DNA of 64,000 nt, from assembly GCA_020444545.1 (NCBI GenBank), contig JAHLKT010000003.1, positions 558,001 through 622,000 on the forward strand, written 5' to 3'. The stretch is from Desulfarculaceae bacterium. Its GTDB lineage: Bacteria; Desulfobacterota; Desulfarculia; Desulfarculales; Desulfarculaceae. Positions 2,509 through 47,520 of this stretch are shown piece after piece (within the stretch, counting starts at the first letter, position 1; each line of letters opens with the position of its first letter). The notes below the pieces were generated by a model. It had not been told where the DNA came from, searched no databases, and was given only the letters and a program-made list of their open reading frames with translations. Made by a program: the position numbers and the translations under genes.

Positions 2509-2539
2509 GCGGCCGGGTGTATGCCCGGCCGCTTTTTTT
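2509..2539 (+). terminator. Intrinsic terminator after the amide hydrolase gene
   Basis: A perfect 9-bp stem (GCGGCCGGG at 2509-2517 with CCCGGCCGC at 2524-2532) and a six-base loop are followed by seven T. It sits 23 bases after the stop codon at 2486. Confidence 0.9.
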
Positions 2540-3058
2540 GGGGCGGGGTTTATCCCCGCCCGATGGCGTCCCGTGAGGATTTTGGGCGGGGATAAACTCC
2601 GCCCCTACACCGGAGGGGACTCGCAATGCCACCGGGTTAGAGAAGTCAGCCCTTGTTGGCCCCGATAGCTCTGCTATCGGGGCCGTGAGGCCTCTGGGCC
2701 GAGCGGCAAGAAATCCCGCGCAAGATTTCTTGTTGCCTCGCCGGAGCGAGGCAACCCCGACAGCAAGCTGTCGGGGCCAGCAGAAATAATTAGAAAAGCG
2801 GGTAAGGAAGAAGGAAAGGAGTCTTGCGGGCGGCCGGGGCGGGGGCGGGGTCGTCTGCTGGCGGGCAGGGATTGCCGCGTCGCGGCCAGGAGGCCGCTCC
2901 TCGCAATGACAAGGCTCTTTTACTTCCCTACTTCTTGGTTCCGGCCGGGGCTGCGGACAGGAGACGGTGGCCGGATTGGGAATTGTTGGGTTTCGGCGCG
3001 GGAGCGCCTCTAGCCAACCTACACGATCGCTGGATAGGTCTGGCCGGTGCGGGGCGCT
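2540..3058. repeat. Intergenic repeat cluster 1, including a head-to-head pair of double-hairpin elements
   Basis: There is no gene here. A GGGCGGGG...CCCCGCCC inverted pair lies at 2540-2608. Two copies of the double-hairpin repeat (type B) face away from each other: one on the minus strand at about 2659-2717 and one on the plus strand at 2727-2783, meeting at CAAGAAATC/GATTTCTTG. In the plus copy the hairpins are TTGCCTCGC/GCGAGGCAA and CCCCGACAGC/GCTGTCGGGG. A type C repeat (ATTGCCGCGTCGCGG ... CTCGCAATGACAA) is at 2855-2912. The same modules recur in other gaps of this window. Confidence 0.8.
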
Positions 3059-10499: not shown

Positions 10500-11098
10500 T
10501 CCCCACCTCGCGAAACCAAACCTTGTCATTGCGAGCGTAGCGAAGCAATCTCTGCTCGAAGCAGGCGACCGGGGGCGGATCGTGCGGCCCGCTGGATGCC
10601 GACGCCCCGCCAAACCTCTTGTCGCTACGCGACCCAGACAGCGAGCTGTCTGGGCCACCCTGCCATCCCTTTCTCCAACCTCTTAAGCGGAACAAGATTT
10701 CTTGTCGCGCCGCCAGAAGCGGCACGACCCCGACAGCAAGCTGTCGGGGCCAACAGACAGAAGCGAAAGAGCACGTAAGGGAAAGAGCTTGGGGTTGGTG
10801 GCGCGGCTCCGGACGATCTCAAGGGAAGATCGCCACGTCGCGGCGGGAGGATCGCCTTTTTCATGGCCGCCGCTTTGGCCGCCGCTCCTCGCGATGACGG
10901 CTTTTGCTGTGTGGTGCTGGGGAGGGGCGGCAAGGTCGTTGCGGGCGCGGGCGCTCTCGGGCGGGGGTGAACCCCGCCCCTACATTTGGCTTTTTTCCTT
11001 ACCAGCTTTTCCTTTTTTCCAGCCCACCTGCTGGCGAACAGAGATTGCCGCGTCGCGGCCAAGAGGCCGCTCCTCGCAATGACAAAACTTTGTGGCGG
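10500..11098. repeat. Intergenic repeat cluster 2 (types A, B and C)
   Basis: No gene is seen between mscS and the DUF1330 gene. A type A composite repeat at 10521-10659 starts CCTTGTCATTGCGAG and, 92 bases on, has CCTCTTG with two hairpins (TCGCTACGCGA, then CCCAGACAGC/GCTGTCTGGG). A type B double hairpin is at 10696-10756 with CCCCGACAGC/GCTGTCGGGG. A diverged type C copy is at about 10832-10898. A GGGCGGGG/CCCCGCCC palindrome is at about 10961-10981, and a type C copy at 11028-11085 ends CTCGCAATGACAA. The outer ends therefore form inverted copies of TTGTCATTGCGAG. Confidence 0.8.
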
Positions 11099-14099: not shown

Positions 14100-14485
14100 G
14101 CGGGGGAATGGGGCGAGGGGCGGGGGCGCTCCTCGCGATGACAACCATCGAATTAATACAGAGCCTTGTCACTGCAAGCGCAGCGAAGCAATCCCTGCTC
14201 GCAGCAAAAGCTTCTGCTGCACCGACGCCGTAGGTTGGTGGCGCGGCCGCCCGCCGGACCTCTTGTCGCGCCGCCAAGGCGACGCGACCCAGACAGCGAG
14301 CTGTCTGGGCCACCCGGGCATTCATTATTCCCAGCCTCTTTTCCGGTTCCGGAGCCGCCCTCTGGCGGGCAGAGATTGCCGCGTCGCGGCTGCGCCGCTC
14401 CTCGCAATGACATCTGGTTTTTTTGATGGCTTTTGGTTGGCCCCGACAAAAGAGCTATCGGGGCCAACAGGAATAATAAAGGCAG
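14100..14485. repeat. Intergenic repeat cluster 3 (types A, B remnant and C)
   Basis: A type A composite repeat at 14164-14314 begins CCTTGTCACTGCAAG and 93 bases later has CCTCTTG with a longer first hairpin (GTCGCG...CGCGAC) and CCCAGACAGC/GCTGTCTGGG. A type C repeat at 14361-14412 ends CTCGCAATGACA. A degenerate type B remnant at 14436-14470 (CCCCGACA...GCTATCGGGG) has one arm of each colour, as if recombined. There is no gene in this gap. Confidence 0.78.
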
Positions 14486-16439: not shown

Positions 16440-16860
16440 TACCCTGGCCATGCTCCAGGCCTACTTCACGGTATGCGAAAACAGGGAAGGGATTTCTTGT
16501 TGCCTCGCTGGAGCGAGGCAACCCCGATAGCAGAGCTATCGGGGTCAGCAGAAAATTTAGCTTTACCTGCCCTACCCGTTTTCATGGCCGCCATCCTGGC
16601 GAACAGAGATTGCCGCGTCGCGCCTGCGGCGCTCCTCGCAATGACAACTTTCAATTTTAATTAGAGCCTTGTCATTGCGAGCGCAGCGAAGCAATCTCTG
16701 CCCGCAGGAAAAAGCCGCGCCTGAAGCCTGCCGCCGGAGGGAATCGCGGCCGCCCGCCTAACCTCTTGTCGCGCCGCCGGAGCGACGCGACCCAGACAGC
16801 AAGCTGTCTGGGCCACCCAGGGAATTACCTTTCCCCACCCTGCCCTTTTTCCCCACCCTT
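16440..16860. repeat. Intergenic repeat cluster 4 (types B, C and A)
   Basis: A type B double hairpin at 16491-16552 has TTGCCTCGC/GCGAGGCAA then CCCCGATAGC/GCTATCGGGG. A type C copy is at 16594-16647. A type A composite at 16667-16817 starts CCTTGTCATTGCGAG, with CCTCTTG 93 bases later and CCCAGACAGC/GCTGTCTGGG. The gap between the PEP-CTERM gene and purine nucleoside phosphorylase (16379-16892) holds no gene. Confidence 0.8.
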
Positions 16861-24044: not shown

Positions 24045-24545
24045 GCGGGGGTTCGATTCGGCGAGCAGGGGCGGGGGTGAAACCCCGCCCTTAGCTTTTT
24101 TGGGGGCACCTTGCCAAACACCCCCCTGTTAAGGGGCGAGGGAGTCTGCTGGCGAACCGAGATTGCCGCGTCGCGGCCAAAAGGCCGCTCCTCGCAATGA
24201 CAACCAATTTGCAGAAATACAAACCTTGTCATTGCGAGCGGAGCGAAGCAATCTCTGCGCGGAGCAGGCGGCGGGGTGCGGGTGATGCGGTGGGTTGGGG
24301 GCGGAGCCGCCCGCCGGACCTCTTGTCGCTTCGCGACCCAGACAGCAAGCTGTCTGGGCCACCCAGTGTCCTTTCTAGCTCCCCGCCATTTCTTTAACCG
24401 CGAACCAGCGACCCGGCAGGAAGCATTTCTTGCCGCGCGGGCGGAGCCGCGCGGCCCCGATAGCAGAGCTATCGGGGGCAACAGGAGGAGATTGGCTTGT
24501 TGGGTTTCGCTTTGCACTACCCAACCCGCACTTTGCTTTTTCACC
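24045..24545. repeat. Intergenic repeat cluster 5 (types C, A and B)
   Basis: A GGGCGGGG/CCCCGCCC palindrome is at about 24068-24090. A type C copy is at 24147-24203. A type A composite is at 24224-24363 (CCTTGTCATTGCGAG, 93 bases to CCTCTTGTCGCTTCGCGA, then CCCAGACAGC/GCTGTCTGGG). A type B copy is at 24425-24484 (CCGCGCGG/CCGCGCGG hairpin, then CCCCGATAGC/GCTATCGGGG). No gene is seen between 24043 and 24609. Confidence 0.8.
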
Positions 24546-47284: not shown

Positions 47285-47520
47285 GCCGGACCGCTCTCGG
47301 GCGGGGGTGAACCCCGCCCCAACATTTTGAGAAAACAAGAAGGTTGCCATTGCGAGGAGCGGCCTCCTGGCCGCGACGCGGCAATCTCTGTTCGCAGCGG
47401 GCGGTGGCGGATATTTCTAGAAAGGGCGGTCACCAGGGAAGATTGCCACGGAGCGCCGCGAGGCAGGGCATGACGGTTTAGGGGCGCAGAGGGCGGCGCT
47501 CCTCGCAATGACCGGCTGTT
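47285..47520. repeat. Intergenic repeat cluster 7 (type C copies and a GC palindrome)
   Basis: A GGGCGGGG/CCCCGCCC palindrome is at about 47299-47320. A type C copy in the minus orientation is at 47344-47398 (TTGCCATTGCGAGGAGCGG ... GGCAATCTCTGTTCGC). A diverged copy at about 47440-47512 ends CTCGCAATGACC. The gap continues to 47619 as AT-rich sequence with no feature I can name. Confidence 0.7.

Follow-up and report, generated by a model that had tools for sequence, protein, structure and literature searches.

According to Nunvar (2010, PMC2817692), Di Nocera (2013, PMC3733652) and Quentin (2018, PMC6006769), a REPtron combines a single-copy Y1/HUH class-2 RAYT, with a Y---NP motif, and flanking cognate GT[AG]G REPs that form species-specific populations and inverted dimers. 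Two tags define REPs, and one of them is GTGG at the base of a GC-rich hairpin; the search rules of Quentin et al. accept one hairpin, or a hairpin, a bulge and a hairpin tip (PMC6006769). As described by Bertels and Rainey (2011, PMC3116915), REPINs are inverted REPs with their feet outside. In the E. coli TnpA-REP enzyme (PDB 4ER8; Corneloup 2021, PMC8266576), Q95 is one of the residues linked to the GTAG guide (PMC8266576; PMC6006769). The elements described here are very probably REPs, often paired as REPINs, that belong to two RAYT (TnpA-REP) systems in one genome, and they bear on how RAYTs recognise and spread REPs.

The window, the whole 64,000-nucleotide stretch that was analysed, corresponds to C3:558001-622000 of a 4.38 Mb genome in 11 contigs (G000). 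The host belongs to the Desulfarculaceae (Desulfobacterota) or is close to them, and the named relatives that matched its RAYTs came from Desulfarculus and Desulfarculaceae metagenome genomes. A first-pass annotation of the window had reported at least seven type B copies of a double-hairpin repeat. All seven positions were found again, one as a partial copy and one by regex match only. The copies in the window were:

2652..2714, minus strand, type B REP, left half of the focal inverted pair (a REPIN with the hairpin 2 ends outside), cmsearch 48.0 bits
2725..2784, plus strand, type B REP, right half of the focal inverted pair, separated from the left half by a 10 nt spacer, cmsearch 57 bits
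10614..10662, plus strand, type A REP (ACCTCTTG..CCCAGACAGC..CCACCC), cmsearch 73.4 bits
10697..10757, plus strand, type B REP, cmsearch 53.9 bits
14258..14317, plus strand, type A REP with a long hairpin 1, cmsearch 59.8 bits
14439..14472, plus strand, partial type B copy with hairpin 2 and tail only and one arm degraded, repeat family D8
16492..16552, plus strand, type B REP, missing from the syntenic position in G008, a 90%-identical relative, cmsearch 49.6 bits and alignment
16761..16820, plus strand, type A REP common to G008, cmsearch 61.1 bits and alignment
24318..24366, plus strand, type A REP, cmsearch 76.2 bits
24425..24485, plus strand, type B REP, cmsearch 45.6 bits
43294..43362, plus strand, degraded type B REP (hairpin 2 CCTGATAGC/GCTATCGGGG, one stem mismatch), regex match below the covariance model threshold

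The genome as a whole contained about 80 copies of this two-hairpin element of approximately 50-60 nt. The genome-wide search that had been proposed in the first-pass annotation, carried out with a covariance model made from 11 short-hairpin copies, returned 77 copies at E<=1e-3 and 83 at E<=0.1. The exact hairpin 2 pattern of type B, CCCCGAYAGC, had 28 genome-wide matches and that of type A, CCCAGACAGC, had 17, while the reversed-pattern control for hairpin 2 had none.

Read on the strand opposite to that chosen in the first-pass annotation, the layout is GGGTGG, hairpin 2, hairpin 1 and CAAGAG, an order shared across the RAYT relatives. The type A unit consists of the 5' foot GGGTGG, a strong 9-10 bp hairpin 2, hairpin 1 and then CAAGAGGT, while the type B unit has the foot CTG[TC]TG plus one nucleotide, a strong 9-10 bp hairpin 2, hairpin 1 and then CAAGAAAT. 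Since the GTGG foot is a REP-defining tag, this strand is the likely functional orientation, and the direction given earlier was probably its reverse. CTTG was considered as a 5' tag and rejected in favor of GGGTGG beside hairpin 2, which is the better match to a REP foot across phyla and reverses the orientation. The GTGG version of GT[AG]G directly at the GC-rich stem, found in type A and nearly all relatives, is the foot of described REPtrons, whereas type B has G[TC]TG instead. Other feet that depart from GT[AG]G were found at the second RAYT of G010 (GGTTAG) and in Blastopirellula marina (GGTTAG/GGTTGG). The hairpin 2 of Blastopirellula marina (CCCCGATAGC) is that of type B, though its RAYT is distant.

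The two types were cleanly separated. The diagnostic ends, CCT...CACCC for type A and TTT...C[AG][AG]CA for type B, were linked to type in G000 (26/1/0/48, p=2.7e-19), with only a handful of chimeric A/B copies. Both types differ from the REPs of described REPtrons in that each unit adds a second hairpin and, distally, a conserved CAAGAG motif; the search rules of Quentin et al. do not include such a tandem-hairpin unit. The kind of system is known, but the tandem second hairpin with its distal motif and the second, G[TC]TG-footed pair appear to be new variants; neither was found described in the running text of open papers, which makes priority uncertain.

The first-pass annotation had pointed to compensatory changes between copies, and the base pairing of the two hairpins was compared with shuffled alignments. 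Among the 84 G000 copies, 98.0% of the base-pair cells contained a standard pair, compared with a shuffled mean of 85.7%. Changes on both sides of a pair numbered 144 against 44.9 expected, although these compensatory changes largely track subfamilies, so that the independent events are far fewer than the cells. The covariation score was 0.336 compared with 0.120 in the shuffles and was reached by none of 500 shuffles. The 150 copies from relatives gave similar values, with 97.9% paired cells and a covariation score of 0.447 versus 0.166. Under a tree-based null in the style of R-scape (a re-implementation of its idea, not R-scape itself), four column pairs covaried significantly in G000 and all four were annotated base pairs. 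For all genomes together there were nine significant pairs, of which six were base pairs and three joined positions within hairpin 1. The focal pair folded strongly, with a z of -7.9. The fold of one type B copy also contained a third basal helix, TTTCT pairing with AGAAA, but this was rejected as a general feature, being present in only 13 of 52 type B copies.

Hairpin 1 occurs in a short form of 11 nt or a long form of about 22 nt. The perfectly paired examples given earlier, with arms that differ strongly between copies, were the best ones; in most long forms the middle is mismatched, and pairs 5-7 are formed in just 19-43 of 74 copies. In hairpin 2, the two main variable pairs were C-G in 53 copies, A-U in 22 and U-G in 2, and C-G in 47 and U-A in 35 with no wobble, respectively.

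It had also been argued that paired substitutions mean that the structure is selected or copied as a folded strand. The REP/RAYT part of this claim is supported by the results given below, but the substitutions alone are no proof of selection, because founder-subfamily copying or hairpin template-switch repair would give an equal pattern. An origin of the paired changes in neutral template-switch repair followed by amplification of founder subfamilies, in which the elements would still be REPs, agrees with the near absence of wobble intermediates at the main variable hairpin 2 pairs, as if whole arms change together, and with the almost perfect separation of the types. It is nevertheless unlikely, since the pairs remained significant against the tree-based null (all four in G000 being base pairs) and the arms still pair in genomes and phyla whose sequences differ. 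The present data would fit either selection by the enzyme or conversion of the arms.

The first-pass annotation had suggested looking for a REP-associated Y1 HUH transposase gene. The genome has exactly two Y1_Tnp genes, both of them RAYTs:

C7:111386-111895, minus strand, RAYT-B, Y1_Tnp gene
C1:51199-51690, plus strand, RAYT-A, Y1_Tnp gene

Five type B copies, alternating in orientation, lie directly around RAYT-B, three on one side and two on the other. The only copies at RAYT-A are two of type A, immediately downstream. Thus, each gene is flanked by its own element type, and RAYT-A pairs with type A and RAYT-B with type B, the latter type being nearly confined to G000, the sole genome with RAYT-B, with one B-like copy in G008. 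The connection of the two types with different RAYTs, the GTGG foot on the opposite strand and the REPIN-like inverted pairs go beyond what had been proposed from the window. Both genes exceeded the cutoff of 80 of the NF047646 REP_Tyr_transpos equivalog, at 112 and 113.5 bits, and PF01797, used as a test for a RAYT-type Y1/HUH transposase, was also matched. PADLOC gave no match.

The AF2 model of RAYT-A (pLDDT 86.6) had 4er8 as its top PDB match (E 1.2e-9), the E. coli TnpA-REP (RAYT) bound to a REP hairpin. The HUH (DHVH) and YMHxNP motifs were invariant in all six aligned RAYTs. The likeness to the E. coli enzyme extends to the fold, the HUH and tyrosine positions and, in RAYT-A, the W-Q motif. 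Unlike that enzyme, both RAYTs have changes, by sequence comparison, at the equivalents of E100, H101 and R104, and the position of Q95 is a lysine in RAYT-B, which carries W-K in place of the W-Q of RAYT-A and most others. Among the TnpA-Y1 subclasses of Quentin, 2.6 has a YIH[QN]NP-like Y motif, a similar length and atypical secondary structures nearby, and 2.4 has a long REP with three basal G-C pairs, but the combination of DHVH, W[QK] and YMHxNP exactly matched no listed row when compared by the listed motifs.

The Y1 transposase family, the hairpin ends and a weak match to the IS200 profile could also suggest that the elements are not REPs but MITEs or the ends of an IS200/IS605-type insertion sequence. 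This reading is extremely improbable: 1) the IS200 scores, 30.2 and 34.9 bits, are both under the cutoff of 55, 2) each gene type is single-copy and the two genes are divergent, with no near-identical multicopy gene, and 3) the units are single REPs and inverted pairs, as in REPtrons.

The same element was present at RAYTs in other genomes. Flanks were read for five close RAYT relatives (G005, two in G010, G012 and G015), and the two-hairpin unit lay beside all of them, with hairpin 2 versions of their own such as CCCGGACAAC. In a scan of GTDB genomes, RAYT relatives turned up in Desulfarculales, Planctomycetes and Verrucomicrobia. Nearly all that had readable flanks carried the unit, either on one side or on both, and their hairpin 2 sequences differed widely. 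A tandem-hairpin REP with a conserved distal CAAGAG at the RAYTs of several phyla would not be fully covered by the published REP search rules. Genomes with a RAYT contained 77, 51, 49, 38 and 4 copies, the genome with 4 being 54% complete, and those without a RAYT contained 0-25. The copy number was higher with a RAYT (Mann-Whitney p=0.0016, with no correction for phylogeny and with related and partly incomplete assemblies in the sample). RAYT-free relatives hold up to 25 copies (25 in G013), indicating that the presence of the element needs no resident RAYT; such copies may be remnants, or the RAYT may have been lost in an assembly gap.

These comparisons also bear on whether the hairpins are instead maintained for a role as structured RNA (as terminators, mRNA stabilisers or protein-binding RNAs), the link to RAYTs being incidental. 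The copies do occupy gaps between conserved genes, their stems covary and the focal pair has a strong fold, all of which such a role would account for. An RNA role does not predict that the unpaired ends are conserved and linked to type, or that the two-hairpin unit flanks RAYTs across phyla; the copies vary between relatives, and the window had no Rfam match at the gathering score. This explanation is accordingly considered highly unlikely, although the elements may, like the REPs of E. coli, have a secondary role as RNA. The REP/RAYT interpretation put forward in the first-pass annotation is preferred, given two RAYT genes with their own elements and the fold match.

Evidence of mobility came from the arrangement of the copies and from close relatives. 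In G005, G012 and G013, 35 of the 40 inverted pairs with feet outside had a gap of 54-64 nt, and the spacers of some pairs were homologous. This near-constant spacer, the partial homology between copies and the strong fold of the whole unit resemble REPINs, and the fixed-spacing inverted pair appears as the duplicated unit in these three genomes. It does so only loosely in G000, which, unlike REPINs, has an irregular pair spacing of 8-92 nt and many copies that are single or oppositely inverted.

In G008, a relative that is 90% identical over the test gene, the RAYT-B unit is absent. When G000:C7:109679-113549 was compared with G008 C24:62781-62870, the homologous flanks enclosed 89 bp in G008 versus 992 bp in G000. 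Nearly all of the type B copies tested were also missing from G008, while some type A copies were shared: about 3 of 10 type A, essentially no type B and one possible B-like copy. This distribution suggests, but only suggests, that the type B copies post-date the G000/G008 split. The focal site in G006 and G009 has no repeat at all, and in G004 this intergenic site holds a type A inverted pair (G004:C1:450863-452925, compared with 2652-2784 of the window). The left hairpin 2 of that pair has a TCT loop identical to the focal one and two paired substitutions. The two pairs were rejected as proven orthologues that had undergone an A-to-B conversion in place, since their hairpin 1 sequences were no closer to one another than to other G000 copies, and they may represent independent insertions at one site.

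By analogy with the enzyme family, the element strand would fold when single, either as lagging-strand template or when extruded. The cognate Y1/HUH RAYT is predicted to bind the foot and hairpin 2, would cut the single strand with its single tyrosine and would copy the element or the inverted pair, or move it, into new intergenic sites; RAYT-A (contig C1) presumably serves type A and RAYT-B (C7) type B. The bases read and the strand processed are likewise inferred.

In the tree, RAYT-B forms a long branch within the clade of RAYT-A and its genus relatives. As part of the REP/RAYT interpretation, RAYT-B is very probably a sister of RAYT-A that diverges fast and whose guide-contact region changed along with the element foot. 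The foot change from GTGG to G[TC]TG coincides with the W-Q to W-K residue change. The coincidence need not be causal, because this is a single event and the second RAYT of G010 keeps W-Q with its unusual foot. A bolder and rather doubtful proposal is that a RAYT duplicate switched its guide-reading residue and the REP population followed, type B being derived from type A as both unpaired ends changed in concert and the hairpins underwent compensatory changes, partly in place on existing elements. The chimeric copies and the G004 type A pair at the focal site are the observations cited for change in place. If true, the genome would have preserved a natural case of a domesticated single-strand transposase switching its specificity. 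With two paralogous RAYTs in one genome and element types that differ at the foot, two hairpin 2 pairs and the distal end, the differences in enzyme and DNA are few enough for swap tests.

Two other dispersed families were observed. A separate canonical GTAG-tagged REP family (GTAGGGGCGGGGTTTATCCCCGCCC) occupies about 40 places in the genome, often as inverted pairs about 45 bp apart, with window sites at 2537-2561(+), 2584-2608(-), 10959-10983(-) and 47299-47323(-); it apparently has no resident RAYT, because the genome has no third Y1 gene. The other, built on TTGTCATTGCGAG...GCAATCTC, lies at 2842-2912, 10517-10602, 11015-11085, 14346-14416, 16596-16649 and 24133-24203 of the window, among other sites, and also occurs at syntenic G008 sites.
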